Assembly: GCA_001768325.1 (NCBI GenBank)
Contig: MENQ01000024.1
Span: 248,001 to 312,000 of the forward strand
Source: Bacteroidetes bacterium GWC2_46_850
GTDB taxonomy: Bacteria; Bacteroidota; Bacteroidia; Bacteroidales; Dysgonomonadaceae
Direction: 5' to 3'
Length of the DNA: 64,000 nt
Shown here: positions 5,000 to 28,001 of the stretch, one piece after another
Position numbering within the stretch: the first letter of the stretch is position 1
How the letters are laid out: each line of letters starts with the position of its first letter
The notes under the pieces: generated by a model
What the model saw: only the letters and a program-made list of their open reading frames with translations
Told to the model about the DNA's origin: nothing
Databases searched by the model: none
Position numbers and translations under genes: made by a program

Positions 5000-5000
5000 G

Positions 5001-5100
5001 AATCAGCTATCAGCTATCAGGAGTCAGCTATCAGCTTTGGTAGTGGGATATTGTTAATATCAGCGGTTGGCAAGGAAATTAGCTGTTAGCAGTTTGAAAT
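5001..5100 (+). repeat. Dispersed heptamer-repeat element, copy 1
   Basis: Begins two bases after the icd stop. Contains runs of the heptamer TCAGCTA (ATCAGCTATCAGCTATCAGG, then GTCAGCTATCAGC) followed by GGGATATTGTTAATAT and CAGCGGTTGG. The same order of parts (TCAGC heptamers, a -AATATTGTT- segment, CAGCGGTTTG) recurs near 23.9, 24.4 and 61.2 kb, so this is a repeat family and not local low complexity. Function unknown. Confidence 0.75.
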
Positions 5101-5103
5101 AAA

Positions 5104-5131
5104 AGAAGGGCAGTCCGTTTGGGCTGCCCTT
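5104..5131 (-). terminator. Rho-independent terminator of the EF-G paralogue
   Basis: Perfect inverted repeat AAGGGCAG (5106-5113) / CTGCCCTT (5124-5131). Read on the minus strand the stem is followed by CTTTTATTTC, and it lies 19 bases past the stop of the minus-strand gene. Confidence 0.75.
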
Positions 5132-5149
5132 GCCATTTGGAAGGAGGAG

Positions 5150-7306
5150 TTAATCCTCTTTTTCCTGATCTTCGTAAGCCTTGAGCAACTTATCCTGTAC
5201 GTCGGCAGGTACCAGTTCGTAGCTGGCAAACTTCATGGTGAAGGAAGCCCTGCCTCCCGTCACGGAACTCAGTGAAGTTGAGTAGCTACCCATCTCCTTC
5301 AGGGGCACCTTGGCTTTCAGCTTCTCAAATCCCTTCTCGCTCTCCATGCCCATGATGATGGCGCGACGTCCCTGCAGGTCGCTCATCACATCACCCATGT
5401 AATCTCCGGGCACGGAAACAGTGACATCGTAAACCGGCTCCAGAATTTTGGGGCCTGCATTTTTGAAGGCTGTACTGAACGCGTTTCGTCCGGCGAGCAT
5501 AAAAGAGATTTCGTTGGAGTCCACCGGGTGCATCTTTCCGTCATAGACGATCACGCGCACATCGCGGGCATAGGATCCGGTGAGCGGCCCCTGTTCCATG
5601 CGTGCCATGATTCCTTTCATGATGGCCGGAAGAAAACGGGCGTCGATGGAACCGCCCACAATGCTGTTGACAAACACCAGCTTGCCACCCCAATCGAGGT
5701 CGATCACCTGTGTGTCGCGGTTCTGAATCTTAAACTCTTGCCCATTGAACCGGTATATTTCCTGAACAGCCATTCCCTCTGTGTATGGCTCCACGATGAG
5801 ATGTACCTCTCCGAACTGACCGGCACCACCCGATTGCTTCTTATGTCGGTAGTCGGCACGTGCCGACTTGGTGATGGTTTCACGATAGGGTATCTTGGGT
5901 TCCAGGTACTCAATCTCAATCTTGTCGTTATTCTCGAGGCGCCACTTGAGCGTTCTGAGGTGAAATTCGCCCTGCCCGGAGACAATGGTCTGCTTCAGCT
6001 CCTTCGATACCTCCACGATCCAGGTAGGATCCTCCTCCTTCATGCGGGTAAGCGCCTCGCTCATCTTCTCCGAGTTGGATTCATTCACCGCTTTGATAGC
6101 CCTGCGATAGCGGGGTTCGGGATATTTGATGAAGTTGAACAGGTTTTCGGATCCTTTGGCGTTCAGCGTATTGCCGGTACGCACATCCTTGAGTTTCACG
6201 GCTGCGCCAATGCTGCCAGCCTGCAGCTCTTCCGTCTTGTTGCGGATCTGCCCGGCTACGGTGTAGATCTGTGCCAGGCGTTCTTTGGAACTGCGATTCA
6301 TGTTAGCGAGATCGTCACCTTCCTTTACAATACCCGACATCACCTTGAAATAGGAAACTTCCCCAATATGAGGTTCTACGGTCGTCTTGAAGAAAAACAG
6401 GCTGGCGGGAGCCGTAGCATCGGGTGCCACTTCTTCACCTTCGCTGTTTACCGGTGCAGCCACGTCGGAGGGTGAGGGGGCTACCATGCTCAGAAAGTTC
6501 ATGATGCGGTGTACCGCCATATTTTTCTCAGCGGAAGTACAGAAGAGCGGGAAGAGAGAGTGTGCTATCATTCCTTTGTGGATACCATCACGCATCTCCT
6601 CCTCGGTGAGTGAACCCTGGTCGAAGTATTTTTCCATCAGTCCTTCATCGTTCTCTGCGGCTGCTTCGAGCAGTGCCTGATAATATTCACCGGCACGCTC
6701 CTGCTCGCTTTCGGGAATCTCAAGCACGTCGGGTGCACTGCTTCCCGGCTTCCAATGGTAAAACTTCTGCTTCAGCACATCCACAATTCCGTCGAATGAG
6801 GTGCCATTGCCGGTTGGGTATTGTACCGGTACAACCTTGCTCCCGTAAAGCTCTTTCAGGCTAGCCAGTGTATTTTCATAATCTGCTTTTTCATGATCCA
6901 TGCGGTTGATGAGCAACACAAGTGGTTTCTTCATCTCGTCCACATAACGGAACTGGTTGATGGTGCCCACACCCACGCCGTTGGCTGCATCAATGAGCAT
7001 GAGTGCCATGTCGGTGACATTGAGTGCCGACACCACGCCTCCCACAAAATCATCCGACCCGGGGCAATCGATAAAGTTCATCAGCTTATCTTTCCACTCG
7101 TAGGATAAAACGGTGGAAAAAACAGAATAGGCATACTCCTTTTCCACGGGAAAATAATCGCTCACAGTGTTCTTCCCGTCAATGGTACCACGTCGTTTTA
7201 TAAGACCACACTCGTAAAGCATGGCTTCAGCGAGGGTGGTCTTACCTGATCCCGCATTGCCGATAAGGGCAATGTTTCTGATTTCGTTTGTTTTATAAAC
7301 TTTCAT
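5150..7306 (-). CDS. Elongation factor G paralogue (EF-G2 type)
   Basis: 718 residues with the five-domain layout of EF-G. The GTPase domain is atypical: the P-loop is GNAGSGKTT (residues 16-24) instead of the usual AHIDAGKTT; the switch I RGIT segment is replaced (EKEYAYSV around 55-62); and the G3 motif reads DCPGSDDF, so residue 84 is Ser where catalytic translation GTPases have His (DTPGH). G4 is NRMD. Domain IV and V sequences are well conserved (for example GAGQFGEV, GSIDARFLPA, PVYDVTVSVPGDYMGDV). Paralogues of this type occur in Bacteroides, where one was reported to translocate without GTP hydrolysis during starvation; T. thermophilus EF-G-2 has a similar P-loop. Single gene, divergent from the Ca2+ ATPase across a 325-base control region. 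Not the housekeeping fusA, which normally lies in the str operon. Confidence 0.93.
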   Translation of the reverse strand: MKVYKTNEIRNIALIGNAGSGKTTLAEAMLYECGLIKRRGTIDGKNTVSDYFPVEKEYAYSVFSTVLSYEWKDKLMNFIDCPGSDDFVGGVVSALNVTDMALMLIDAANGVGVGTINQFRYVDEMKKPLVLLINRMDHEKADYENTLASLKELYGSKVVPVQYPTGNGTSFDGIVDVLKQKFYHWKPGSSAPDVLEIPESEQERAGEYYQALLEAAAENDEGLMEKYFDQGSLTEEEMRDGIHKGMIAHSLFPLFCTSAEKNMAVHRIMNFLSMVAPSPSDVAAPVNSEGEEVAPDATAPASLFFFKTTVEPHIGEVSYFKVMSGIVKEGDDLANMNRSSKERLAQIYTVAGQIRNKTEELQAGSIGAAVKLKDVRTGNTLNAKGSENLFNFIKYPEPRYRRAIKAVNESNSEKMSEALTRMKEEDPTWIVEVSKELKQTIVSGQGEFHLRTLKWRLENNDKIEIEYLEPKIPYRETITKSARADYRHKKQSGGAGQFGEVHLIVEPYTEGMAVQEIYRFNGQEFKIQNRDTQVIDLDWGGKLVFVNSIVGGSIDARFLPAIMKGIMARMEQGPLTGSYARDVRVIVYDGKMHPVDSNEISFMLAGRNAFSTAFKNAGPKILEPVYDVTVSVPGDYMGDVMSDLQGRRAIIMGMESEKGFEKLKAKVPLKEMGSYSTSLSSVTGGRASFTMKFASYELVPADVQDKLLKAYEDQEKED

Positions 7307-7631
7307 GATTAGAAAATATTTAAAAATTAATGTGCCATGTCAATCAGCCTTGCATCGGTAAAGTGCTGGGTATCGATCTGTTGATGCTATCAGAGTAAAA
7401 CAAGAAAAATGACCTTGCGTCGGTGAAGACCCACAAAGTCATCATGTTTTAATAGCGCTTGCAATTTATAAAAATCGGTTGAGAAAGAAAAATGTTACAT
7501 TTATGTTATACAACATGTATAGAAGTGGGAAATGTTTGAAAATGTTTAAATGTGAAACATTCCGTCCTTTTCATTTGTTTACTCACAGGGTGAAGTGTTC
7601 CATTACCAGAGCCTGACCCACAAATCATACC
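7307..7631. promoter_or_regulatory. Divergent control region with operator-like dyads
   Basis: 325 bases without a gene between the EF-G paralogue (-) and the Ca2+ ATPase (+). It holds an inverted repeat ATGTT-ATAC-AACAT (7503-7516), two direct repeats AATGTTT(G/A)AA (7531-7540, 7541-7550), and an overlapping dyad AATGT-GAA-ACATT (7549-7561), all about 70-130 bases before the ATPase start. Nearer to the EF-G gene, CCTTGC(A/G)TCGGT(A/G)AAG occurs twice (7347-7362 and 7412-7427). These look like binding sites or leader elements; no regulator can be named. Confidence 0.45.
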
Positions 7632-10382
7632 ATGACGACAAAGACAAAAATTACAAATGCAAACAGGTTACAGATGAACAAACAACAACCAGAACGGCAC
7701 TACAGCCAAACCATCGAAACGGTTTTGCAGCAGTATCAGGCTGACCCTGATTCAGGGCTGTCTGTTGAAGCCGCGGCAGAACGACTTGCGGAGCATGGAC
7801 CCAACCGGCTCGAATCGACCCGGCAAAAATTGGTCCTCACCATTTTTTTTGAACAATTTAAAAGCAGCATGGTACTGATCCTGCTGGTGGCAGCCATCAT
7901 CTCGGCTGTGATTGGCGTGATGGAGGATGAGGGACTGGTGGAAACCTTTGTGATCCTGGCCATACTGGTTGTAAATGCAATCATTGGTACCGTGCAGGAA
8001 CTGAAGGCGCAATCGTCGCTTGAAGCGCTTAATAAGATGAGTTCACCCCATTCGAAGGTGTTGCGCGGAGGGCAAGTGGAGGAGGTGGTTTCCACCGACC
8101 TGGTTCCCGGCGATATTGTGGTGCTTGATACGGGTGATATCATCCCGGCCGATCTGCGGTTGATTGAGACAGCAAACCTGAAAATACAGGAGTCCGCCCT
8201 CACTGGTGAATCGGTGCCGGTTGAGAAGAACGGGGATATACTCGAAGATACGGAAATACCGTTGGGAGACCGTAGTAACATGGCTTTTTCCACCAGCACG
8301 GTCACCTACGGCCGCGGTAAAGGTGTGGTTGTTTCCACCGGCATGCATACCGAGGTGGGTAAAATCGCCCACATGCTGCAAGCTACGGAGGCTACGGAGA
8401 CACCTATGGGCAAGCGACTTGAGCAGTTGGGCAAGGTGTTGGGATACGTGGCGCTGGGTATCTGTGGCTTTATTTTCCTGGTGGGGTTGTTGTACGGAAA
8501 CCACTGGCTGGAGGTGCTGATGATGGCGGTGAGCCTGGCCGTGGCAGCCATACCGGAAGGGTTGCAGATCGTGTCGACCATCGTGCTGGCCATTGGTGTG
8601 CAGCGCCTGGTAAAGCAGAATGCCATTGTGCGTACCCTGCCCTCGGTGGAGACCCTGGGAAGTACCACGGTAATCTGTTCCGATAAAACCGGAACGCTCA
8701 CGCAGAACAGGATGACCATAGTAGAAGGATGGAGTGGCGGCAACCGGATTGACTTCCGCAATGCTCCCCCGGCCGAAGAACTTGATAGCGACGAGAATCT
8801 GCTGCTGCAGACGGCTCTTCTCTGTACCGATGCCCATTTGAAGATGCTCCCCGACGGTAAACATGAAACGGCCGGTGATCCTACCGAGACGGCCATCGTG
8901 GATGTGGCGCTCGGGCTGAAGAAAAATAAACTCACGCTGGAGCAGCAGTTTCCCCGGGTGGGTGAAGTGCCTTTTGATTCCGACAGAAAACGGATGGCCA
9001 CCATCAACAGGATGGGGGAAGGAGATTTTCGAATTCATGTGAAAGGAGGTCTCGATGAGGTATTGGCCGTTACCTCACACATCCTCATACATGGAAACAG
9101 ACGGCCCATCACCGATGAGGACCGTGAAACCATCCGCAAAGAGAATCTCCGGATGGCTCAGTCGGCCCTTCGTGTGCTGGCAGTAGCTTACAGAGATATT
9201 GATGCCATTCCCGCTGAGGTGACAGCCGCCACAATCGAAAAAGAGCTGATCTTCGTTGGTTTGCTCGGGATGATCGACCCGGCCCGACCTGAGGTGGTGG
9301 AGGCGGTGAAAAAATGTCGTACGGCCGGTATCCGGCCGGTGATGATTACCGGTGATCATAAGGTGACGGCTGTGGCCATCGCGTCGGAGATCGGTATTTA
9401 CAGGGATGGGGATCAGGCTCTCACTGGCTCCGACCTGGAAGTGATGGAGCAGGATCAACTCGACCGCACGGTCCGGGATTTTTCGGTCTATGCCCGGGTG
9501 GCTCCCGAACACAAGGTACGCATCGTGCAGGCCTGGCAGTTGCAGGGTGACATTGTGGCCATGACCGGCGACGGCGTGAATGACGCACCGGCACTCAAAC
9601 AGGCCGATATCGGCGTGTCGATGGGCATCGTCGGAACGGAAGTGGCAAAGGATGCCTCCGATGTGATCCTCACCGATGACAACTTCGCCACCATCGTCGG
9701 TGCCGTGGAGGAAGGACGCCGTATTTATGACAATATCCTGAAAGCCATCCAGTTTTTGCTATCGGCCAACGTGGGTGAGGTATTGCTGATTTTTATTGCC
9801 TCGATCTTCAATATCGGCAATCCGCTTTCACCCATTTTGATCCTGTGGATCAACCTGGTGACCGACAGTCTGCCGGCGCTGGCGTTGAGCATGGATCCGG
9901 CGGAGAAAGATATCATGACCCGAAAGCCGAGGGATCCCCAAAAGGGTTTCTTCACAAAGGGGATGATCTGGCGGATCTTTTACCAGGGAACGACCATCGG
10001 GCTGATCTCGCTGGCGGCCTACATCATCGGACGCAACGACGGTCTACGGGCGGGACTTGAAAATCCCGATGCACTCGGTCAGACCATGGCCTTCGCCGTG
10101 CTGGGATTATCGCAATTGCTGCATGTGCGCAACCTGCATTCCAATAAACATTCTTCTTTCCGTACCAGCCTCTGGGAAAATAAATCACTTCTTGGAGCCA
10201 TCTTCCTTTCCACACTGCTGTTGCTGCTGGTTTTGCTTATTCCAGGCGTAATGCGTATCTTTGGGGTGGTGGAAATGGACAGTACGCACTGGCTTTACGT
10301 GATTGGATTGTCGTTGCTCCCCATCGCAGTGGTCGAACTGATGAAGTTATTCAGAATCAACCATTCAAAGGATGAGTATTGA
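7632..10382 (+). CDS. Cation-transporting P-type ATPase, Ca2+ (SERCA/PMR1) type
   Basis: 916 residues. Exports a cation, most likely Ca2+, across the inner membrane at the cost of ATP. Motifs in order: LTGESVPVEK in the actuator domain; SDKTGTLTQ with phosphorylated Asp351; HVKGG in the nucleotide domain; TGDGVNDAPALK hinge. Membrane helix residues that bind Ca2+ in SERCA are present: Glu in IPEGL (M4), NVGEV (M5) and NLVTDSLPALAL (M6, N-x-x-T-D). The residue after PEGL is Gln instead of the common Pro. The N-terminal cation ATPase domain begins near RHYSQTIETVLQQY, so the second Met (base 7674) is an equally plausible start. A hybrid sensor regulator starts 15 bases downstream, so read-through transcription is likely, though a functional link is not evident. 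Confidence 0.94.
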   Translation: MTTKTKITNANRLQMNKQQPERHYSQTIETVLQQYQADPDSGLSVEAAAERLAEHGPNRLESTRQKLVLTIFFEQFKSSMVLILLVAAIISAVIGVMEDEGLVETFVILAILVVNAIIGTVQELKAQSSLEALNKMSSPHSKVLRGGQVEEVVSTDLVPGDIVVLDTGDIIPADLRLIETANLKIQESALTGESVPVEKNGDILEDTEIPLGDRSNMAFSTSTVTYGRGKGVVVSTGMHTEVGKIAHMLQATEATETPMGKRLEQLGKVLGYVALGICGFIFLVGLLYGNHWLEVLMMAVSLAVAAIPEGLQIVSTIVLAIGVQRLVKQNAIVRTLPSVETLGSTTVICSDKTGTLTQNRMTIVEGWSGGNRIDFRNAPPAEELDSDENLLLQTALLCTDAHLKMLPDGKHETAGDPTETAIVDVALGLKKNKLTLEQQFPRVGEVPFDSDRKRMATINRMGEGDFRIHVKGGLDEVLAVTSHILIHGNRRPITDEDRETIRKENLRMAQSALRVLAVAYRDIDAIPAEVTAATIEKELIFVGLLGMIDPARPEVVEAVKKCRTAGIRPVMITGDHKVTAVAIASEIGIYRDGDQALTGSDLEVMEQDQLDRTVRDFSVYARVAPEHKVRIVQAWQLQGDIVAMTGDGVNDAPALKQADIGVSMGIVGTEVAKDASDVILTDDNFATIVGAVEEGRRIYDNILKAIQFLLSANVGEVLLIFIASIFNIGNPLSPILILWINLVTDSLPALALSMDPAEKDIMTRKPRDPQKGFFTKGMIWRIFYQGTTIGLISLAAYIIGRNDGLRAGLENPDALGQTMAFAVLGLSQLLHVRNLHSNKHSSFRTSLWENKSLLGAIFLSTLLLLLVLLIPGVMRIFGVVEMDSTHWLYVIGLSLLPIAVVELMKLFRINHSKDEY

Positions 10383-18058: not shown

Positions 18059-18640
18059 ATGATTTCTCCAACAAGCAATAACCGGGAAAATGTCACAGAG
18101 GAAAAGTTAACCCTCCTTTTTCAGCAATATCAGGCAGGCAGCGTTGAAGCTTTCAATGGCCTGTATGATCACTATGTGCACATGCTTTTTAATTTTGGCT
18201 GTAAGCTGACTGATGACAGAGAACTGCTGAAGGATTGCATCCACGATGTTTTTATCAAGATGTACCATAACCGTTCAAATTTAGAGAATGTGCTGAATTT
18301 CAGGTCTTATCTTTTTGTATCTCTAAAAAACAGGCTATGTGATGAATTGAGAAAAACAAATTATATCTCGGGTCAGCCTGTGGAAGATTATCATCCTGTT
18401 TCAGGGAATGATGTGGAAAACGAGTACATTGAAGCCGAAAAATCGACATTCTGTCACCAGAAAATAACATCATTGATGAACATGTTGTCAACCAGGCAGC
18501 GTGAAGCCATCACACTTTATTATCTGGAGGAAAAGAAGTATGAAGATATCTGTGTGTTGATGGGCATCAACTACCAATCTTTACGAAATTTGATACACAG
18601 GGGATTAACGAAGTTGAGGGATGTTGCAGTTTCGGTTTGA
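18059..18640 (+). CDS. ECF-type RNA polymerase sigma factor
   Basis: 193 residues. Region 2 is at residues 25-95 (FNGLYDHYVHMLFNFGCKL, then LLKDCIHDVFIKMY, and the DNA-melting/-10 reading segment FRSYLFVSLKNRLCDELRK); region 4 is at 140-190 (STRQREAITLYYLEEKKYEDICVLMGINYQSLRNLIHRGLTKLRD), a helix-turn-helix. This is the Bacteroidetes family that usually partners with a membrane FecR-like anti-sigma and drives SusC/SusD transporters. Here the partner is the very short protein whose TTG start overlaps the stop codon (TTGA), so the two are translationally coupled. Transcribed in the same direction as the preceding beta-helix gene, after a 119-base gap. Confidence 0.93.
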   Translation: MISPTSNNRENVTEEKLTLLFQQYQAGSVEAFNGLYDHYVHMLFNFGCKLTDDRELLKDCIHDVFIKMYHNRSNLENVLNFRSYLFVSLKNRLCDELRKTNYISGQPVEDYHPVSGNDVENEYIEAEKSTFCHQKITSLMNMLSTRQREAITLYYLEEKKYEDICVLMGINYQSLRNLIHRGLTKLRDVAVSV

Positions 18641-18936
18641 AAATTGAGTACAAAGAGTATGTCATTGCGTCTTATCCATATAAAAACAACAAAGTGGAAA
18701 AAGACGCACTTGAGATCAAAAAGTTGTTACTCAGCAGCAGTTTCCTGGATGCTGTACTGAACAATTCTTTCTCTGTTTCAGAATGGGAAACATATGCCGA
18801 AGTCAACTTTCCCGATAAGATGGAAACAGCCCGGGAGGCTCGTGACATTATTCTGTACCTGAATAAGGACAAAAAAGAGTTGTCCGGCGACGAAAGTCAG
18901 GCATTGAAGTTGCAAATCCTGCGTTCACTCACCTAA
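18637..18936 (+). CDS. Short FecR-like anti-sigma domain protein, possibly truncated
   Basis: 99 residues from a TTG start that overlaps the sigma factor TGA; no in-frame ATG lies near. The pattern SSFLDAVLNNSFSVSEWETYAEVNFPDK...AREARDIILYL resembles the N-terminal cytoplasmic anti-sigma helices of Bacteroidetes FecR proteins (a loop with a Trp, a Pro-Asp/Glu, then an Ala-rich helix). FecR proteins normally continue for about 330 residues through a membrane helix and a periplasmic domain; here translation stops at KLQILRSLT, just where the membrane helix would begin, and no continuation is seen in other frames downstream. It may be a soluble mini anti-sigma or the remnant of a deleted gene. 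Function inferred from position and pattern only. Confidence 0.6.
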   Translation: MKIEYKEYVIASYPYKNNKVEKDALEIKKLLLSSSFLDAVLNNSFSVSEWETYAEVNFPDKMETAREARDIILYLNKDKKELSGDESQALKLQILRSLT

Positions 18937-19169: not shown

Positions 19170-19421
19170 ATGGAAAATTTAAATGAGGCATTGGGTCTTT
19201 TGGCCATTGGTATGATCATGGTGATTATTGTACTTTGGCTGGTGGTGGGACTTGGTAATCTGGTCATCAATCTCACCAACCGCTTTATATCCGATGAAAA
19301 AAAACCGGGAACTTCAAACCGGGACAAAGGAATTCATCACCAAAAGCTGGCTGCTATCGTGGCTGCTGTGGACGTGATTACCCACGGACGCGGGAAGGTA
19401 GATTCAGTTCAGAAGAAATAA
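19170..19421 (+). CDS. oadG: Na+-transporting decarboxylase, gamma-chain (OadG-like) subunit
   Basis: 83 residues. One membrane helix near the N-terminus (about residues 8-32, LGLLAIGMIMVIIVLWLVVGLGNLVINLTN) followed by a short cytoplasmic tail (ISDEKKPGTSNRDKGIHHQKLAAIVAAVDVITHGRG), the standard layout of oxaloacetate decarboxylase gamma or methylmalonyl-CoA decarboxylase delta chains, which hold the alpha and beta subunits together. The HHQKLAAIVAAV segment is the recognisable part of the family. It is the first gene of a gamma-alpha-beta operon; the alpha gene starts 18 bases downstream. Confidence 0.85.
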   Translation: MENLNEALGLLAIGMIMVIIVLWLVVGLGNLVINLTNRFISDEKKPGTSNRDKGIHHQKLAAIVAAVDVITHGRGKVDSVQKK

Positions 19422-19439: not shown

Positions 19440-21374
19440 ATGGGAAGAGAGATTAAATTCAGTCTTTTATACAGAGACATGTGGCAGTCATCGGGGAAAT
19501 ACGTACCTACGGTGGAACAGCTTACAGAAGTAGCCCCCGCGATCATAGAGATGGGATGCTTTGCACGCGTAGAGACCAACGGCGGCGGGTTTGAACAGAT
19601 CAACCTGTTGTTTGGCGAAAACCCCAACAGGGCCGTCCGGGAATGGACAAAACCTTTTAATGAGGCGGGTATTCAGACACACATGCTGGAGCGTGGGCTG
19701 AACGGCATCAGGATGACACCGGTACCCCCCGATGTGCGGAGGCTGATGTTCGAGGTGAAGAAGAAACAGGGCACCGACATTGCCCGTTCGTTCGATGGAC
19801 TGAATGATACCCGCAATCTGGCGGACTCCATCCGCTACGCCCGTGATGCCGGGATGATTTCCCAGGCAGCGCTTAGCCTCACCGTATCACCCATTCACAC
19901 GGTGGAGTACTACACTACACTGGCTGACACGCTCATTGAGATGGGTGCCGACGAGATCTGTGTGAAAGATATGGCGGGCGTGGGCCGCCCGGCAAGCATC
20001 GGCAAGATTATCAAAAATATCAAAGTGCGTCATCCGCAGATTCCCGTGCAATATCACGGCCATGCCGGCCCCGGTTTTCAGATGGCTTCCATCCTGGAGG
20101 CAGCCTACGCCGGAGCGGACTTTATTGATGTGGGCATGGAGCCTCTCTCATGGGGTACAGGTCATGCCGACGTGCTGGCGGTACAGGCGATGCTGAAGGA
20201 TGCAGGCTTCAATGTGCCCGACATCAACATGAAAGCCTATATGAAGGTGCGTTCCCTCACGCAAAAATATATGGACGACTTCCTGGGTTACTACATAGAT
20301 CCCAAAAACAGGGTGATGAACTCGCTGCTGATCGGGCCGGGATTGCCAGGTGGCATGATGGGCAGCCTGATGGCCGACCTGGAGAGCAACCTGTCGTCTC
20401 TCAACAAATGGAAGGTGAAAAACGGACAGCCGGAACTTATACAGGACGACCTGCTGATCAAGCTTTTCGAGGAGGTTACCTACGTATGGCCCAAGGTGGG
20501 ATATCCCCCGCTGGTGACGCCCTACAGTCAGTATGTGAAGAATCTGGCGCTGATGAACGTTTTGCAGCTTGAAAAAGGCAAGGAACGCTGGTCTATGATT
20601 GCCGACAACATCTGGGACATGATCCTGGGCAAGTCGGGCAAGCTACCCGGTGAACCTTCACCGAAGCTCGTGGAGCTGGCAAAACAACAGGGACGTGAAT
20701 TCTACACGGGTAACCCGCGGGATCTTTATCCCAATCAGCTGGATAGCTTCCGCGAGGAGATGAAAAAGAAAAATTGGGAAGTGGGGCAGGATGAGGAGGA
20801 ACTCTTTGAGCTGGCCATGCATCCCGAACAATACCGTGCATACAAGTCGGGTGATGCCAAGCGTTCTTTCGAAGCCGACCTGGCCAAACGAAAAGCCGAA
20901 AAGGCTGATCAGGAAGCTCTGTCAGCTGCCGAAAACACCAACGGCAATGGCAATGGTAATGGCAATGGTTGTCAGCCCAAGAGGCTGGTCGTAACGATCG
21001 ACAACCAGGAGTATGTGGTCTACATTGCTTACCCCAATGAAACAGACAATGGCACATCGCAGGTTACCCCTGTCGCAGCACCAGCACCGGCTGCTCCAAT
21101 TTCGCAAAGTCCCGTTGCATCTGCTTCGGCCTCCGCAGGTTCTCTCAAAGAGGTGATTTCTCCGCTTGAGGGTAAGTTTTTTCTCACCAAAGACTCTTCC
21201 GAGACTCCGTTGAAAGTGGGCGACAAAGTGAAAAAAGATGACATCATCGGATACATCGAATCGATGAAGACCTACAATGCCGTTTCTGCCGAAGAGGGTG
21301 GCACGGTGACCGAGATCTGTTTTGCCAACGGTGATTCAGTAGGTGAAGATGACATACTTATTAAAATGCAATAA
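19440..21374 (+). CDS. oadA: Biotin-dependent decarboxylase alpha subunit, variant carboxyltransferase plus biotinyl domain
   Basis: 644 residues. An HMGL-like carboxyltransferase barrel (1-300), a conserved carboxylase domain (to about 480), a linker with an Asn-Gly repeat (about 500-510) and an Ala/Pro-rich linker, and a biotinyl domain with ESMKT (biotinyl Lys610; the usual motif is EAMKM). The metal site is preserved relative to oxaloacetate decarboxylase and pyruvate carboxylase: Asp13 (RDMWQS), Lys176 (VKDMAG), His206 and His208 (HGH). Substrate and proton-transfer residues are not: the usual HTHDTSG is HGHAGPG, so the catalytic Thr is Gly210; LEVWGGATFD is VETNGGGFEQ and the following Arg is absent; RDAHQS is RDMWQS. 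Usually annotated oxaloacetate decarboxylase alpha, but the substrate may be a different 2-oxo or acyl compound. Works with the flanking gamma and beta genes as a Na+ pump. Confidence 0.88.
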   Translation: MGREIKFSLLYRDMWQSSGKYVPTVEQLTEVAPAIIEMGCFARVETNGGGFEQINLLFGENPNRAVREWTKPFNEAGIQTHMLERGLNGIRMTPVPPDVRRLMFEVKKKQGTDIARSFDGLNDTRNLADSIRYARDAGMISQAALSLTVSPIHTVEYYTTLADTLIEMGADEICVKDMAGVGRPASIGKIIKNIKVRHPQIPVQYHGHAGPGFQMASILEAAYAGADFIDVGMEPLSWGTGHADVLAVQAMLKDAGFNVPDINMKAYMKVRSLTQKYMDDFLGYYIDPKNRVMNSLLIGPGLPGGMMGSLMADLESNLSSLNKWKVKNGQPELIQDDLLIKLFEEVTYVWPKVGYPPLVTPYSQYVKNLALMNVLQLEKGKERWSMIADNIWDMILGKSGKLPGEPSPKLVELAKQQGREFYTGNPRDLYPNQLDSFREEMKKKNWEVGQDEEELFELAMHPEQYRAYKSGDAKRSFEADLAKRKAEKADQEALSAAENTNGNGNGNGNGCQPKRLVVTIDNQEYVVYIAYPNETDNGTSQVTPVAAPAPAAPISQSPVASASASAGSLKEVISPLEGKFFLTKDSSETPLKVGDKVKKDDIIGYIESMKTYNAVSAEEGGTVTEICFANGDSVGEDDILIKMQ

Positions 21375-21376
21375 CG

Positions 21377-22585
21377 ATGGGTGAATTCTTTTCCAATATA
21401 GTGGAAGTAACCGGCTTCAGCTTTGTCAACTGGGGCACGGCTCTGATGTGGGTTATCTCTGGAATCCTGTTATATATGGGGATTTTTAAGCAGTATGAGC
21501 CTCTGTTGCTGGTGCCCATCGGCTTTGGCGTATTGCTGGCTAATCTTCCCGGAGCCGGAATGGCCGTGGTGGAAAGTAATATGGTGGTAAAACCGGACGG
21601 AAGCCTGATGAACCTGCCGGAGATTGCTGCCAATCATGGCATTATTAATTTCCTCTATTATTCCCTGATCAAGTCGGGCATTCTCCCGCCTGTCATCTTT
21701 ATGGGGGTGGGGGCGTTGACCGATTTCGGTCCGATGCTGCGGAATCTGAAGCTTGCCTTCTTTGGCGGTGCCGCACAGATTGGTATTTTTACGGTGGTCA
21801 TCCTGGCTGTACTGATGGGCTATTCGATGCCTGAAGCAGCCTCCATGGGGATCATTGGTGGTGCCGACGGCCCCACGGCCATCTACACCACCATCAAACT
21901 GGCGCCGCACATGCTGGGGCCCATTGCCATTGCGGCCTATTCCTACATGGCCATGGTGCCGGTGATCATACCTGCTGTGGCAAAGCTGCTGATGACAAAG
22001 GAGGAGTTTGGTATTCACATGAAGAAGATGGACAAACTTTATCCGCCGAAGAATGAGATCAAACATCTGCGGGCGGTAAAGATCATTTTTCCCATAGTCC
22101 TTACGCTGGTTGTTTCCGTGCTGGTACCCTCTGCTGCACCGCTCATCGGGATGCTGATGCTGGGCAATCTCTTGAAAGAGATTGGCCCCAATACAGCCCG
22201 TCTGGCAGATGCCGCTGCCGGTCCCATCATGAATACCGCCACTGTCTTTCTGGGCGTGTGCGTGGGAGCGACCATGCCTGCCGAGGTTTTTCTGCGGTGG
22301 GAGACTATCGGTATCCTCGTACTGGGTCTGTTTGCTTTTGCCATCTCTATTGCGGGAGGCATCCTGATTGTGAAGCTTTATAACAAGGGAGCGAAGAAGA
22401 AGATCAACCCGCTGGTCGGTGCCACCGGCCTGAGTGCGGTGCCCATGGCATCGCGTGTAGCCAATGATATGGCGCTGAAGTATGACAAGTCGAATCACAT
22501 CCTTCAGTACTGCATGTCGAGCAACGTCTCCGGCGTGATTGGTTCTGCCGTGGCTGCGGGTGTGTTGATCGCGTTTTTAGGTTAA
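21377..22585 (+). CDS. oadB: Na+-transporting decarboxylase, beta subunit
   Basis: 402 residues, integral membrane protein with about 9-11 hydrophobic segments. It takes the carboxyl group from carboxybiotin, releases CO2 and exports Na+. The family signature GGADGPTAIYTT, containing the Asp of the Na+ path, is present at about residues 158-169, as is SSNVSGVIGSAVAAGVLIAF at the C-terminus, an ending typical of the family. The start ATG lies two bases after the alpha-subunit stop. Residues that face the carboxybiotin appear conserved while the alpha subunit is not, which fits a shared pump with a changed substrate. A strong terminator follows. Confidence 0.95.
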   Translation: MGEFFSNIVEVTGFSFVNWGTALMWVISGILLYMGIFKQYEPLLLVPIGFGVLLANLPGAGMAVVESNMVVKPDGSLMNLPEIAANHGIINFLYYSLIKSGILPPVIFMGVGALTDFGPMLRNLKLAFFGGAAQIGIFTVVILAVLMGYSMPEAASMGIIGGADGPTAIYTTIKLAPHMLGPIAIAAYSYMAMVPVIIPAVAKLLMTKEEFGIHMKKMDKLYPPKNEIKHLRAVKIIFPIVLTLVVSVLVPSAAPLIGMLMLGNLLKEIGPNTARLADAAAGPIMNTATVFLGVCVGATMPAEVFLRWETIGILVLGLFAFAISIAGGILIVKLYNKGAKKKINPLVGATGLSAVPMASRVANDMALKYDKSNHILQYCMSSNVSGVIGSAVAAGVLIAFLG

Positions 22586-22704: not shown

Positions 22705-23907
22705 TCAAGCTTTTTCGAAAATGTCGCGGATTGCCTGTGCAATGATGGGTACGCCGCGGTGGATTGTTTCCACGTTGGTGTTGCAGAATGACACACGCAT
22801 GTGATCGTTGTGTATTCCATCGGGATCAAATGTCTTCCCGGTGACGAAGACCACTCCCTTTTCAATTGCTTTTTTCAGCACCGCTGTTGCATCACATTCT
22901 TCAGGCAGCTGTAACCAGGTATAGAAGCCTCCGCGTGGCTTTTCGAAAGTCACATATTCCGGCAGGCAGGCTTCCAGTGTTTCAATCATGGCCAACCCCC
23001 GTTTCTTGTACTCCTTCCTCACCTGTGCCACATAGGAGTGAATATGACCCTCTCGGATAAACTTGTCTGCAATCACCTGTGAGAGACTGGGTGAACAGGC
23101 ATCGAGCGACTGTTTGATCAGCTCACACTTCCGGTATATCGATTCGGGTACCAGCATCCACCCGAGCCGCAGACCAGGCCCCAATATCTTCGAGAAGGAG
23201 CCGGTAAAACAAACATCAATTCCTTCGGGATCCATTGCCTTGATCAGTTTCATCTTTGGCAGATCTTCTTCGTAAAAGTATAGGTCGCTGTATACATCGT
23301 CCTCAATGATGGGAATCTCCTGATCTTTTAATAGCTCCACCATCTGCTGTTTCACTTCCGGTGTGTAGATGATTCCTGCCGGGTTGTGAAAGTTGGGCGC
23401 ATAATAGAGAAACTTTGGCTTGGGTAGTGAACTTTCTAATCTCTTTCGCAACTGGTCGATATCCATCCCGTCGCCGTTCAGCGGTACGGTAATCAATTCG
23501 GCCTCACAGGCACGAAATGCCGACAGTGCCCCAATAAAGCTGGGTGTTTCCACCAGCACAGGATCTCCCGGGTCGAGGAACGCTTTGGCCAGGATATGAA
23601 TAGCCTGGAGTGATCCGGTGGTGATAATCAGCCGGTTATTTTTTACGGGGAGTCCCTTTGTTTCCAGATAGTCCGACAATGACTCCAGCAGGGTGGGGAG
23701 TCCGGTCGTCGGTCCATACTGCATGGCTATCTGTTTCTCTCTTTCTGTAAGGGAGTTGTAGATTTTATCCAGGGTGTCGAGCGGAAAAAGCTCGTTGCCG
23801 GGCATGCCGCCAGCAAAGGAGATCATATTGGGAGCCGTGGCGAGGCTCATCAGGTCACGTATTTCCGATGAACGGAGATTGGCGATATTTTTAGAAAATC
23901 GGGGCAT
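22705..23907 (-). CDS. PLP-dependent aminotransferase, class I/II (2-aminoadipate/aromatic type)
   Basis: 400 residues, fold type I aminotransferase. The opening FSKNIANLRSSEIRDLMSLA and ISFAGGMPGNELFP is typical of the LysN/KAT-II/archaeal aromatic aminotransferase group. Cofactor landmarks: ITTGSLQAIHILAKAF, YAPNFHNPAGI with the PLP-phosphate Asn, DDVYSDLYF with the Asp-Tyr pair, and GSFSKILGPGLRLGW with the Schiff-base lysine. It transfers the amino group from an amino acid, likely aromatic or branched-chain, to 2-oxoglutarate. It is the last gene of a minus-strand group with iorA, iorB, paaK and an ACT protein, so it would supply the aryl-pyruvate substrate. A repeat element separates it from the ACT gene. 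Exact substrate not readable from sequence. Confidence 0.9.
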   Translation of the reverse strand: MPRFSKNIANLRSSEIRDLMSLATAPNMISFAGGMPGNELFPLDTLDKIYNSLTEREKQIAMQYGPTTGLPTLLESLSDYLETKGLPVKNNRLIITTGSLQAIHILAKAFLDPGDPVLVETPSFIGALSAFRACEAELITVPLNGDGMDIDQLRKRLESSLPKPKFLYYAPNFHNPAGIIYTPEVKQQMVELLKDQEIPIIEDDVYSDLYFYEEDLPKMKLIKAMDPEGIDVCFTGSFSKILGPGLRLGWMLVPESIYRKCELIKQSLDACSPSLSQVIADKFIREGHIHSYVAQVRKEYKKRGLAMIETLEACLPEYVTFEKPRGGFYTWLQLPEECDATAVLKKAIEKGVVFVTGKTFDPDGIHNDHMRVSFCNTNVETIHRGVPIIAQAIRDIFEKA

Positions 23908-23914
23908 AGTTGTT

Positions 23915-23990
23915 TTTAGCGTTCAGCTGTCAGCTATCAGCGATCAGCTTTTATAGGAGCAATTGTTTGGCTTACAGCGGTTTGCAAGTT
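23915..23990 (+). repeat. Dispersed heptamer-repeat element, copy 2
   Basis: Reads TTTAGCGT, then four heptamers of the form TCAGCNN (TCAGCTG, TCAGCTA, TCAGCGA, TCAGCTT), then TATAGGAGCAATTGTT and CAGCGGTTTG. It fills the gap between the aminotransferase start and the ACT gene stop, and shares its order of parts with copies at 5.0, 24.4 and 61.2 kb. Confidence 0.75.
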
Positions 23991-23993
23991 GGT

Positions 23994-24419
23994 TTATAGT
24001 TGGTAGATATCGGCTTGAGAGAGTAGTTGCTGGTTATTTTTCTCCAGCACCCCGCTCATTTGAACGATATCCTCAGCACGGATCACGGCCAGTGCCACAT
24101 CGTTGTTCGAGAAGGCGTACATATAATCCACATTGATCTTTTCTGCAGCCAGTATCTCCAGGATGCGGTAGAGTGATCCCGGCTTGTCGGGGATATTCAC
24201 GCAGACCACGTCGGTGAGTCCGATGGAGAACCCGGCTTCCTCAAGTACTTTTTTGGCCAGTTCGGGCCTGCCCACCACCATGCGTACAATGCCATAATCG
24301 GCCGTTTCCGCTACACTGAGTGCGGTGATGTTTACGTCGTTTTCAGCCAGGATGCGGGTCAGTTCGGTCAGTCTTCCAGACCGGTCTTCCAGAAAAACAG
24401 AAAGTTGTTTGATGTACAT
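23994..24419 (-). CDS. Tandem ACT-domain protein
   Basis: 141 residues made of two ACT domains: residues 1-65 (IKQLSVFLEDRSGRLTELTRILAENDVNITALSV) and 70-135 (VVCVNIPDKPGSLYRILEILAAEKINVDYMYAF). ACT domains bind amino acids and regulate enzymes; stand-alone tandem ACT proteins often lie next to phenylacetate-CoA ligase and indolepyruvate oxidoreductase genes, as here. I infer that it senses an aromatic or branched-chain amino acid and tunes the catabolic enzymes of the group, but no direct evidence is in the sequence. No catalytic domain is fused. Both flanks are repeat elements. Confidence 0.88.
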   Translation of the reverse strand: MYIKQLSVFLEDRSGRLTELTRILAENDVNITALSVAETADYGIVRMVVGRPELAKKVLEEAGFSIGLTDVVCVNIPDKPGSLYRILEILAAEKINVDYMYAFSNNDVALAVIRAEDIVQMSGVLEKNNQQLLSQADIYQL

Positions 24420-24420
24420 G

Positions 24421-24540
24421 TTATTTAGCGTTCAGCTCTTTCGGAGCAATGTTGTTTCCTGCAGCGGTTTATATCTTTTCTAGTGTTCAGTATCCAGCGA
24501 TCTTGTATCTTGTATCTTGTATCTTTAATCTTCGATCTTC
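24421..24540 (+). repeat. Dispersed heptamer-repeat element, copy 3, with TCTTGTA heptamer run
   Basis: Reads TTTAGCGTTCAGCTC-TTTC-GGAGCAATGTTGTTT, then GCAGCGGTTT, as in the other copies, with a GCTC/GAGC hairpin in the core. From 24487 comes a second run of seven-base units, TTCAGTA, then TCTTGTA three times, TCTTTAA and TCTTCGA (24502-24536). It lies between paaK and the ACT gene. Confidence 0.75.
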
Positions 24541-24545
24541 CTCAA

Positions 24546-25844
24546 TCAGCAATGCCGGTGGTCGATGACCCGCTTGGCTTTTCCCTCCGACCGTTCGATG
24601 CTGTTCGGTTCCACCAGGCGGACTTTCGCGCTGATGCCGAGCATGGACTTGATGTTGTTGTCGATGCGGTGTCGTATACCCTCCAGTTCGCGGATGCTGT
24701 CCGACCAGTTTCTCTCGTCTATCTCCACCAGCACCTCCAGTGTATCGAGATTATTCTCTCTTCTGATGATCAGCTGGTAGTGTGGCGTGGTTTCTGTCAT
24801 CTCCATCAGTACGGATTCTATTTGCGACGGGAAGACGTTCACCCCGCGGATGATCAGCATGTCGTCGGTGCGTCCCAGACATTTCTCCATACGTACCAGG
24901 GTACGTCCGCAGTCGCATTTCTCCCTGTGCAGCCGGGTAAGGTCGCGCGTGCGATAACGCAGCAGCGGCATGGCCACCTTGCTCACCGGAGTAAAGACCA
25001 ACTCACCAATTTCACCGTCGGGCAGCACTTCCAGTGTCTCGGGATGGATGATCTCGGGGATGAAGTGATCTTCAAACACGTGATTGCCGCACTGGCATTC
25101 ACACTCCATGGATACACCCGGGCCAATCACTTCGCTTAGTCCATAAATGTCGAAAGCTTTAATCCGCAGCAGTTGTTCAATTTCCTTGCGCATCTCGTTG
25201 GTCCAAGGTTCAGCGCCAAAGATACCAATGCGGAGTCTGATCTCCTCCGGAGCGATTCCTTCCTTGCGGATGCTTTCACCCAGGTGAGCAGCATAAGACG
25301 GTGTGCAGGCCAGGATGGTTGCCTGGAAGTCGGTCATAAACTGCAGCTGCTTTTTGGTATTCCCGGTAGATATGGGAATCACGGTAGCGCCCACTTTCTC
25401 TGCTCCGTAATGCAGTCCCAGTCCCCCGGTAAACGGACCATAGCCATAGGCGATCTGGATGGTGTCGCCGCTGTGTATGCCTGCCATGGTGAGGCTGCGC
25501 GCCACCACCTCGGCCCATGTTTCCAGATCCTGTTGCGTATAGCCCACCACGGTGGGTTTCCCTGTGGTGCCACTCGATGCGTGGATGCGCACCACATCGC
25601 TCTGTGGTACGGTGAACAAACCAAAAGGATAGTTGTCGCGTAGATCGTTTTTTGTGGTGAAAGGCAGGTCGCTCAGCTGATCCACGCTCCGGATATCGCC
25701 CGGCTCTATGCCTGCTTCCTTCAGTTTCTTCCGGTAGAAAGGTACGTTGTCGTAGATCCGTTGTATCATTGCGGTGAGCCGCCTGCTTTGTATCTCGTGC
25801 ATCTGTTGCCTGTCGGCACATTCCATTTCGTTGTTCCAGATCAT
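24546..25844 (-). CDS. paaK: Phenylacetate-CoA ligase (AMP-forming arylacetate-CoA ligase)
   Basis: 432 residues from the ATG chosen at 25844, which begins [14 protein letters not shown] as PaaK proteins do and lies one base past the iorB stop; an upstream in-frame ATG at 25883 would overlap iorB and is less likely. ANL-superfamily ligase: [15 protein letters not shown] is the AMP-binding loop, [11 protein letters not shown] the second core motif, and [19 protein letters not shown] the hinge. Joins phenylacetate or another aryl/acyl acid to CoA. Next to indolepyruvate oxidoreductase, which makes arylacetyl-CoA, it may run in reverse or re-activate free acids. Cytoplasmic. Confidence 0.93.
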
Positions 25845-25845
25845 C

Positions 25846-26421
25846 TTATTTCTGCGTGTTATCTTTTCCAAGTCTGAAAGCATTCAGGTTCGTTTCCACA
25901 ATTTTTTCTCCTTTACCGCCAAAATAGGTGACGATAGCCTTTTCCAGTTCTTCCGGTTCCATGCCGATATAGGGCGCTGCGGCTCCCAGCATGGCCACGT
26001 TGTATGTCATCACGTTTCCTGCCGCTGTGGCCATCGATTTCGCATCCACCAGAAAAGCGGAAGAAGATTCACTAATCTTTTGCAACAACTCGGTTTTGTC
26101 AGGGTAGCTGTCTATATTTTCGTAGGGTTCAGTAGAGGTCACAATAACTCCATCCGGTGCCAGGAAAGGAAGGTATCTCAGCGATTCCATCGGTTCAAGC
26201 GAAAGGATCATATCTGCTTTCCCCAATGGAATTAGGTCGGAGTAAATCTCTTCTGTGGAGATGCGGAGATGGGATTCCACGGCACCGCCGCGCTGACTCA
26301 TACCGTGTACTTCGGCCTGCTTCACGTGAAGACCCAGATTCATGGCTGCCAGATCGATGATGGATGCGATGGTAAGGATTCCTTGTCCACCTACGCCGGC
26401 GATGATGATATTTTTGTACAT
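25846..26421 (-). CDS. iorB: Indolepyruvate oxidoreductase, beta subunit
   Basis: 191 residues from the ATG at 26421 ([19 protein letters not shown]), the usual family start; an in-frame ATG at 26454 would add 11 unconserved residues. This gamma-type pyruvate-ferredoxin-oxidoreductase domain carries GVGGQGI and [15 protein letters not shown], both family signatures. With IorA it oxidatively decarboxylates aryl-pyruvates to arylacetyl-CoA and reduces ferredoxin. The start lies inside the end of iorA (31-base overlap) and paaK starts one base past the stop, so the three are tightly coupled. Confidence 0.95.
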
Positions 26422-28001
26422 TGTTTTTTTTGTTTTTTCAATGTTTGTACACACTCCCGTTGTGAGATAATCACCGAGACACCGTTGTAATCGAGTTCTT
26501 CTTTCAGGATGGTGCTGTTCTCATTCAGGTTCTTTTTGAGCGGAACCATCAGCCTGATATGCTCTTCCTCCACGCCCAACCCTTTGCAGATATCGAAGAA
26601 CCTACCGGTGCCGGCTGAATCCTGTCCACCCGTCATGGCGGTCGTGTCGTTGTCGGATATGATGATGGTGACCGACGAACGGTCGTTCACAGCATCAAGC
26701 AGTCCCGTCATCCCCGAGTGGGTGAAGGTAGAGTCGCCAATTACGCAGACTGCCGGTCGAAGGCCCGCGTCGGCGGCACCTTTGGCCATGGTGATGGAGG
26801 CGCCCATATCCACGCAGGTGCTGATGGCATTGTAGGGAGGCAGTGCTCCCAGCGTGTAGCAACCGATATCGCCGAATACCTGTTTATATGGATAGGATTC
26901 CATGGCCAGGTTGAGGGCATCGAACAGGTCGCGGTGGCCGCATCCCTGACAGAGCATCGGCGGCCGGGACGCGACAATTGCGGGAATTACTTTCGTTTCT
27001 GAAGTCGTTAATCCGAGCGCTTTTGCTAGCGGGGCGGGGGAGAGTTCTCCCATACGGGGCAGTGCTCCGTCAAGTCGTCCCCGGAATTTACGGTTGCCAA
27101 AATAGCCCTTCAGCAACTCCTCGTATACCGGATATCCCTCTTCAACGATCAGGATGTCGTCGTATTGATCACAGAATGCTTTAATCTTGTGCTCAGGCAA
27201 TGGGTATTGCGATATTTTCAGCAGGGGAATCTGTAGCTTGTAGCTGCCGATGACCTCCATGGCGTAGTTGTAACCGATACCGAAGGCAATCGCTGCCTTT
27301 TTCCCTGTTCCTTCCATTATCTTGTTATAGGGGGAAGATTCCGACAATGACATCAGTTGCTGCTGTTTTTCCAGTAGCTGTTGATAGTTTCTCCGGGCGT
27401 TTGCCGGCAGCAGGATCCATTTTCCTTTTTCCTCCGAGGGAGCCAGATTATTTTGGGGGCGTGTTTCTTTCCTTGTAACCACCGCTCTGGAATGAGACAG
27501 CCGGGTAGGTATGCGTAGCAGCACGGGCAGCGCTGTCTGTTCCGACAGATCGAAAGCATGCCGCGTCATGTTGTAAGTCTCCTGCTGGTTTGCCGGTTCC
27601 AGTACGGGGATCATGGCAAATTTACCATATACGCGGCTATCCTGCTCATTCTGTGAAGAATGCATGGAAGGATCGTCTGCTACAACAATTACCAGCCCGC
27701 CATGAATGCCGGTAACTGATGAGTTCATGAAAGCATCGGCGGCCACGTTTAGCCCCACGTGCTTCATACAAACGAGGCTTCGCTTGCCGGCGTACGACAT
27801 GCCCAGGGCAGCTTCATAAGCCGTTTTTTCATTCGTTGCCCAGGCAGAGCGGACGAATGGCTCTTTTGCCTGTGGCGATTTTTGTACGTATTCGGTTATT
27901 TCGGTCGAAGGTGTGCCGGGATAGGCATACACGCCAGATATACCCGCATCCAGTGCCGCCTGGGCAATGGCTTCGGCACCCAATAGCAATTGTTTGTTCA
28001 T
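26391..28001 (-). CDS. iorA: Indolepyruvate oxidoreductase, alpha subunit, lacking the usual C-terminal ferredoxin domain
   Basis: 536 residues. Order: pyrimidine-binding domain (YAYPGTPSTEITEY...WATNEKTAYEAALGMSYAG), middle domain, and TPP-binding domain (LCQGCGHRDLFDALN, GDIGCYTLG, GDSTFTHSGMTGLLDAVN, SDNDTTAMTGGQDS). Archaeal and many bacterial IorA proteins are about 600-640 residues and end with two [4Fe-4S] clusters (CxxCxxC repeats). This one stops after [29 protein letters not shown] with no such motif, so the two clusters are absent. Electrons must leave by another route. Upstream lies a leader with competing hairpins. Substrate range (indolepyruvate, phenylpyruvate, 4-hydroxyphenylpyruvate) is inferred from the family and from the neighbouring paaK. 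Confidence 0.94.
   Translation of the reverse strand: MNKQLLLGAEAIAQAALDAGISGVYAYPGTPSTEITEYVQKSPQAKEPFVRSAWATNEKTAYEAALGMSYAGKRSLVCMKHVGLNVAADAFMNSSVTGIHGGLVIVVADDPSMHSSQNEQDSRVYGKFAMIPVLEPANQQETYNMTRHAFDLSEQTALPVLLRIPTRLSHSRAVVTRKETRPQNNLAPSEEKGKWILLPANARRNYQQLLEKQQQLMSLSESSPYNKIMEGTGKKAAIAFGIGYNYAMEVIGSYKLQIPLLKISQYPLPEHKIKAFCDQYDDILIVEEGYPVYEELLKGYFGNRKFRGRLDGALPRMGELSPAPLAKALGLTTSETKVIPAIVASRPPMLCQGCGHRDLFDALNLAMESYPYKQVFGDIGCYTLGALPPYNAISTCVDMGASITMAKGAADAGLRPAVCVIGDSTFTHSGMTGLLDAVNDRSSVTIIISDNDTTAMTGGQDSAGTGRFFDICKGLGVEEEHIRLMVPLKKNLNENSTILKEELDYNGVSVIISQRECVQTLKKQKKQCTKISSSPA

Follow-up and report, generated by a model that had tools for sequence, protein, structure and literature searches.

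Three adjoining plus-strand genes in the window, a stretch of 64,000 nucleotides corresponding to positions 248001-312000 of contig 24 in a genome of 3.75 Mb with a completeness rating of 100%, form a predicted decarboxylase Na+ pump operon. The question raised by this locus is which substrate such a pump would decarboxylate. A sequence-only reading of the same DNA had proposed that the active site of the alpha subunit is re-modelled, and that the pump is therefore driven by a substrate other than oxaloacetate. That argument rested on the loss of a Thr and an Arg, both of which we find to be present. We regard the pump as being of a familiar type, with an alpha subunit that is unusually divergent.

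The first gene (19170..19421, +) encodes an oadG-like gamma subunit of 83 amino acids, whose match to PF04277 scores 24 bits (E=6.6e-5) for a cut-off of 27. It lies just 5' of the alpha gene and was missed in the sequence-only reading. The second gene (19440..21374, +) encodes the OadA-like alpha subunit of 644 amino acids, wherein a TIM-barrel carboxyltransferase domain (HMGL-like, PF00682), a PYC_OADA domain (PF02436) and a C-terminal biotinyl domain (PF00364) are all found above their Pfam cut-offs. It is also the sole PF02436 match in this genome. The third gene (21377..22585, +) is oadB, which encodes a beta subunit of 402 amino acids predicted to serve as the Na+ channel and carboxybiotin decarboxylase. 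Immediately 5' of the operon (18059-18936) lie a gene for an ECF-type sigma factor and an ORF of 99 amino acids that has no Pfam match. On the other side and on the minus strand (22705-28001) is a cluster of genes for an aminotransferase, an ACT-domain pair protein, a phenylacetate-CoA-ligase-like protein and IorB-/IorA-like proteins, which together resemble an aryl-2-oxoacid cluster.

The oadB product had been described as keeping its family signature, and this description holds: it scores 434 bits with PF03977 and 400.6 bits with TIGR01109, for which the cut-off is 190.6. Alignment places D164, S353 and N383 at the Na+-site residues D203, S382 and N412 of the Salmonella typhimurium OAD beta subunit, and N344, G348, R360 and S390 are additionally retained. 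Na+ binding by the Salmonella protein is abolished in the D203A and S382A variants and weakened in N412A, according to excerpts of PMC7274780. OadB in the window thus keeps the Na+-site residues.

The association between these genes is widely kept among the close relatives of alpha, which we call the pump group (group 1). There are 76 scored loci, namely 75 from named genomes and the window, with five of 80 loci left unscored because the centre gene was unrecognised. The oadB gene is present in 73 of these loci and is immediately next to the alpha gene in 72. An oadG homologue is located directly 5' of the alpha gene in 52 loci, a count made by BLAST clustering of short ORFs that may miss some. 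Beyond these two partners, the commonest neighbour clusters reach no more than 11 of the 76 loci, some of whose contigs stop close to the alpha gene, and no carboxyltransferase gene is among those clusters. These observations support the earlier assignment of the genes to a Na+-pump-type biotin decarboxylase operon.

The motifs that had been reported for the 644-amino acid ORF are all present (RDMWQS, D13, K176, H206, H208, HGHAGPG and ESMKT at residues 607-611). The deduction from them that a catalytic Thr and the substrate Arg are missing is a motif mix-up. In pyruvate carboxylase (PC) from Lactococcus lactis, the cation ligands are H732, H734, R533, D534 and carboxylysine 703, whereas R606 contacts pyruvate or oxaloacetate, S870 touches biotin and T867 is positioned at the carboxyl group undergoing transfer (PMC9581989, in part). 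T882 of the R. etli enzyme, described as catalytically essential in the portion of PMC5895798 consulted, would correspond to T867 by the numbering that we worked out. When the L. lactis chain is read with an offset of 6, H732 and H734 fall in HTHDT, and T867 and S870 fall in KVTPSSK. The proton-transfer Thr is therefore the one in VTPSS, which sits approximately 130 residues past the HTHDTSG motif to which it had been assigned.

The window equivalents of this L. lactis set are R12, D13, K176, H206, H208, R85, T360 and S363, and the catalytic set is therefore kept. R12 and D13 are encoded within the R12-D13-M14-W15-Q16 codons (19473..19487, +), of which R, D and Q are universal and M and W are specific to the clade of alpha. 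R85, the counterpart of the substrate Arg R606, is found in MLERG (19692..19694, +), and K176 (19965..19967, +) is the counterpart of the carboxylated Lys. The metal ligands H206 and H208 are part of HGHAGPG (20055..20075, +), in which they are followed by the clade-specific G210-P211. T360-P-Y-S363 (20517..20528, +) provides the counterparts of T867 and of the biotin-contacting Ser S870. The biotin attachment residue K610 (21267..21269, +) lies in the ESMKT motif. We take Q16 to have a role in the substrate site. Thus, the metal ligands, the carboxylysine, the two substrate Arg residues, the Gln, the catalytic Thr and the biotin-contacting Ser are all identical in the window protein.

These residues are also conserved far beyond the window. 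The alignment combined 129 rows of the clade (122 distinct) and 45 rows of PC/OadA/5S type, the latter taken from the same phylum and not all of them oxaloacetate decarboxylases. Among the positions inspected, those identical in 129/129 clade rows and 45/45 others include R12, D13, Q16, S17, E45, R85, R116, K176, D177, H206, V359, T360, P361 and S363, and N88 is found in 129/129 and 44/45. The substrate Arg that had been called absent is thus universal, and T360 is the very Thr whose appearance in an alignment the sequence-only reading had named as grounds for abandoning its proposal. The metal ligand H208 is His in 116 of the 129 clade rows. The remaining 13 rows (e.g. L045, L053 and L057) carry Gln, always with Thr209, and so read HGQTGPG, which represents a natural change of a metal ligand.

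The sequence changes that drew attention to this protein are real and not due to chance. W15, Y21, R91, M92 and P211 occur in 129/129 clade rows and 0/45 others, and K20 occurs in 129/129 and 2/45. Further clade-specific residues are M14 (123/129), G19, T46-N47, E52-Q53, Y205, G210 (126/129), W238, G301 and Y365, with T46 and Y205 each also present in two of the 45 other rows. The replacement of HTHDTSG by HGHAGPG stands as an observation, but HTHDTSG is the form found in PC, and the corresponding residues are HCHSTAG in Vibrio cholerae OadA, HAHATSG in PycB and HCHSTTG in 5S. The part that is truly clade-specific is therefore confined to two positions after the second metal His. The first of these, two residues past the His, is Thr in 45/45 other rows and Gly in 126/129 clade rows, and the [TSAD] that follows this Thr in other rows becomes Pro211 in the clade.

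Another change is located seven residues past the substrate Arg, where Tyr or Leu is found elsewhere and Met (M92) is found in all 129 clade rows. This position is presumably Y628 of R. etli PC, and a Y628A entry exists in the PDB. The combination of G210 and this Met indicates that the pocket is not standard, and the changed positions probably include the biotin pocket. As judged by alignment, the clade-specific changes alter positions beside the catalytic residues and do not remove the catalytic set. The clade shows that a PC-type carboxyltransferase can lose the Thr-[TSAD] pair after its metal ligands and still retain the true catalytic set. The ESMKT biotin motif, which had also been pointed out as differing from EAMKM, is not special but one of several variants: among 108 pump-group rows there are 73 with EAMKT, 15 with ESMKT, 12 with ESMKV, six with EAMKV, one with DSMKT and one in which none was found.

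A phylogeny of OadA-like proteins had been proposed as a check on whether these proteins form their own clade, and they do. In a careful tree of 64 rows (40 from the clade, with the long rows L169 and L180 and nine pump-group rows left out), the clade branch has bootstrap and SH-aLRT values of 100 and a stem of 3.4 changes per column. A quick tree of 75 rows agrees on the clade. Identity to alpha is mostly 60-73% inside the clade (order sample) and at most 35% outside it. Although 387 of 395 genomes from the phylum match the alpha query at E<=0.001, only 102 of 295 genomes in the order sample do so at 1e-30, and these include 97 with clade genes, seven with canonical-type genes and two with both. 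Unfetched genes were assigned to groups by open-frame length and by their aligned end rather than by sequence, and three fragmentary genomes (G570, G593 and G677) are ungrouped.

The nearest named homologue of alpha, which is 90% identical overall, comes from a metagenome-assembled genome labelled Porphyromonadaceae, followed by homologues from Proteiniphilum, Petrimonas and Fermentimonas. Representatives of the pump group are found in Phocaeicola, Parabacteroides, Bacteroides, Proteiniphilum and Petrimonas, and the function of this operon therefore bears on energy conservation in Bacteroidales of the gut and of anaerobic digesters. In Petrimonas mucosa, oadB (ING2E5A_1825) is numbered next to pycB3 (ING2E5A_1826) in the accessible part of PMC7768429. 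Going by annotation alone, this is probably the same pair as oadB and alpha in the window. Our literature search returned no enzymology for the clade, and the portions consulted of PMC11204068, PMC11238397, PMC13114119 and PMC8473912 hold no content specific to it. Proteins resembling transcarboxylases, termed 'extremely divergent bacterial homologues', were set apart in a 2011 phylogeny of biotin carboxylases (PMC3199775, in part), and a 2022 survey of gut genomes reports that 108 genomes from Actinobacteria genera encode a 5S/12S transcarboxylase (PMC9403272, in part).

The divergence of alpha is evident from its family scores, all of which are below the relevant cut-offs: 257.2 bits for the oadA equivalog TIGR01108 (cut-off 756.5), 199 bits for the transcarboxylase 5S model PRK12330 (cut-off 827), and 293.3 and 202.6 bits for the pyruvate carboxylase subunit B models PRK09282 (cut-off 402) and PRK14041 (cut-off 734). 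AlphaFold2 modelling with 59 rows drawn from the window and the named loci gave a mean pLDDT of 83 and a pTM of 0.79. The best matches of this model among solved structures are PycB at Z 40.1 (5ks8), pyruvate-bound 5S at 39.6 (1rqh) and the OadA of V. cholerae at 38.7 (2nx9), scores that are tied or nearly so.

Given these findings, we infer that the oadG-oadA-oadB operon encodes a Na+-exporting biotin decarboxylase whose substrate is most likely oxaloacetate, a reading to which we assign a probability of roughly 70%. It is favoured by the partnership with oadB and oadG to the exclusion of any other widely kept neighbour, and by universal catalytic residues whose L. lactis PC equivalents contact the metal, pyruvate/oxaloacetate or biotin. 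Likewise, PycB, pyruvate-bound 5S and OadA are the solved structures nearest to alpha, the Na+-site residues are kept in OadB, and the window genome encodes a PEP carboxykinase, which is a possible source of oxaloacetate. Evidence that weighs against it includes the shortfall with TIGR01108, the low identity outside the clade, the non-standard pocket and the gamma subunit match below the Pfam cut-off. Absence of pyruvate kinase was considered as a reason for the pump and ruled out, since the genome encodes this enzyme.

By this mechanism, the metal/carboxylysine site of alpha would bind a 2-oxo-4-carboxylic acid (most probably oxaloacetate), which would be held by R12, Q16 and R85. T360 would then carry a proton while the carboxylate moves to the biotin on K610. 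The biotinyl domain would swing to OadB, which would decarboxylate the carboxybiotin and export Na+.

Perhaps the pump instead decarboxylates a different 2-oxoacid or a beta-keto acid, with the rebuilt pocket mirroring the new substrate. The presence of about 17 clade-specific residues at the positions inspected, many of them adjacent in sequence to catalytic residues, the very long stem of the clade and the failure to reach the oadA equivalog cut-off are all consistent with this proposal, as is the aryl-2-oxoacid gene cluster that adjoins the operon. However, every residue known to hold pyruvate or oxaloacetate is kept. We also rejected the IorAB/PaaK cluster as a clue to the substrate, because its genes, which are on the opposite strand, adjoin the pump in no more than 2-3 of 76 loci, the window included. 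A different substrate can be entertained because residues beside the catalytic ones have changed; nothing points to a specific one, and we consider this proposal unlikely.

It is far less probable that alpha is mainly a transcarboxylase subunit that passes carboxyl groups from the K610 biotin to an acyl-CoA carboxyltransferase in trans, with OadB in a secondary role. There are two acyl-CoA carboxyltransferases in the window genome, and close relatives of alpha adjoin such genes (at a single group 2 locus and at most loci of group 3, described below), but in the pump group the nearly invariant partner is oadB, with no carboxyltransferase among the common neighbours. The label given to alpha by annotation, and by the nearest curated model and best NCBIfam match (PRK09282, below cut-off), is 'pyruvate carboxylase subunit B'. 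In that role alpha would work with a separate biotin carboxylase, and this reading has the least chance of being correct even with the pycB3 numbering in P. mucosa and one biotin carboxylase in the window genome. The latter is encoded on a different contig beside a carboxyltransferase gene, the pump operon contains none, and among the 36 pump-group genomes of the order sample 17 yielded no biotin carboxylase (one of these, G405, is 61% complete).

The most interesting part of this clade lies outside the window, where the same module is found with two other kinds of partner. Groups 2 and 3 jointly occupy one side of a branch with 100/100 support, which is nested within a grade made up of pump-group proteins. 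By itself, group 3 is supported at 92/55 in the careful tree, where its neighbour is the group 2 protein L153 (98/88), and it is split in the quick tree.

Group 2 proteins are approximately 590 amino acids long, and the biotin Lys motif is absent in 14 of 14 fetched members. At the L153 locus (4283-8454), the group 2 gene is followed by genes for a 519-amino acid carboxyltransferase of the PCC beta/12S type, a 66-amino acid ORF of no clear family and a 143-amino acid biotin carrier. This is the layout of the 5S/12S/1.3S transcarboxylase, in a genome of the same order. No 12S-like or carrier neighbours were recognised by eye in 11 other group 2 loci, a set that excludes the short-flanked L005 and L006. 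At another locus, L164, the group 2 gene adjoins two lysine-fermentation-like genes, whose products we take to resemble the beta-keto acid cleavage enzyme and 3-aminobutyryl-CoA lyase.

Group 3 proteins are approximately 725 amino acids long and carry a fused biotin domain with the motif DAMKM. The seven fetched group 3 loci (L146-L152) resemble operons for leucine degradation: a gene like that of methylcrotonyl-CoA carboxylase beta (MCC beta) is present in five, and subsets also carry enoyl-CoA hydratase, acyl-CoA dehydrogenase, HMG-CoA-lyase-like, CoA-transferase and acetoacetyl-CoA-ligase-like genes. The leucine-pathway genes other than MCC beta were named by best NCBIfam match, in all cases below cut-offs, for L146 and L147, and by eye elsewhere. 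The top PDB match of the L147 MCC-beta-like protein is 9tps, labelled propionyl-CoA carboxylase beta (741 bits), followed by human MCC beta (725), the MCC beta 3u9r (698) and AccD1, labelled acetyl-/propionyl-CoA carboxylase (696), whereas classic PCC beta chains score from 260 bits down (1vrg).

Biotin carboxylase genes were surveyed in 62 genomes, consisting of 60 of the 61 group 2/3 genomes of the order sample (G630 was left out), G394 from the phylum sample and G449 from the pump group. An MCC-beta-type gene, assigned by score band, is present in 22 of 22 group 3 genomes and within 5 kb of the group 3 gene in 17. None of these 22 genomes has a biotin carboxylase ORF longer than 600 amino acids, whereas four of the five other MCC-beta genomes in the set have one of 667-679 amino acids. 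We take MCC alpha to exceed 600 amino acids and judged it by ORF length alone; by this yardstick, group 3 proteins are candidates to take the place of MCC alpha. However, a biotin carboxylase of 437-523 amino acids is present in 18 of the 22 genomes and could serve MCC beta there. Only the four in which no biotin carboxylase was found (G406, G427, G483 and G539, 95-99% complete) therefore offer strong evidence, and these are draft assemblies.

Genomes in which the biotin carboxylase C-terminal domain (PF02785) was not found are common in the order sample (111 of 295, several of them 98-100% complete). They account for 28 of 43 group 2 genomes versus 83 of 252 others (p=0.0001, uncorrected for relatedness). 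The corresponding figures are 17/36 versus 94/259 for pump-group genomes (p=0.27) and 4/22 versus 107/273 for group 3 genomes (p=0.07), the last of which leans in the opposite direction.

These gene associations suggest that groups 2 and 3 may be ATP-independent transcarboxylases built on the same module, with relatives of alpha apparently recruited to supply other carboxyl-transfer reactions. We tentatively propose, at somewhat less than even odds, that the clade is a Bacteroidales module that donates carboxyl groups from oxaloacetate to biotin and serves at least three acceptors. These would be the Na+ channel in group 1, a 12S-like acyl-CoA carboxyltransferase reached via a separate carrier after loss of the biotin Lys in group 2, and MCC beta reached via the fused biotin domain in group 3. 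In leucine catabolism, group 3 would thereby take over from the ATP-dependent biotin carboxylase, with oxaloacetate and methylcrotonyl-CoA yielding pyruvate and methylglutaconyl-CoA. If this is true, some anaerobes carboxylate acyl-CoAs without the cost of ATP, and the annotation of leucine breakdown, and possibly of malonyl-CoA supply, changes in genomes that lack biotin carboxylase.

Among known systems, the OadGAB pumps of Klebsiella, Salmonella and Vibrio resemble the window operon in an apparent set of three subunits (the window gamma match is just below its cut-off), a TIM-barrel alpha subunit with C-terminal biotin, the D203/S382/N412 equivalents in OadB and the kept catalytic set of alpha. 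They differ in that the window alpha is only 23% identical to 2nx9 over the structural match, falls far below the oadA equivalog cut-off and has clade-specific changes beside its catalytic residues. The 5S subunit of Propionibacterium transcarboxylase (1rqb/1rqh) is the best PDB sequence match of alpha, with 27% identity for 1rqh. However, 5S lacks a biotin domain and is partnered by 12S and 1.3S, whereas alpha has a biotin domain and OadB, and the 5S layout is closer to the group 2 relatives without the biotin Lys. PycB of the two-subunit pyruvate carboxylase (5ks8) shares the domain order of alpha and is its top structural match, but alpha is partnered by OadB rather than by a biotin carboxylase. 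The Na+ pumps that decarboxylate methylmalonyl-CoA, glutaconyl-CoA or malonate share with the window operon a homologous beta subunit and the principle of coupling, as outlined in part of PMC7274780. The methylmalonyl-CoA type uses a PF01039 carboxyltransferase, and the window genome carries such a set separately on contig 29 (31064-36331), where a methylmalonyl-CoA-decarboxylase-type carboxyltransferase gene is followed by two tandem OAD_beta genes.
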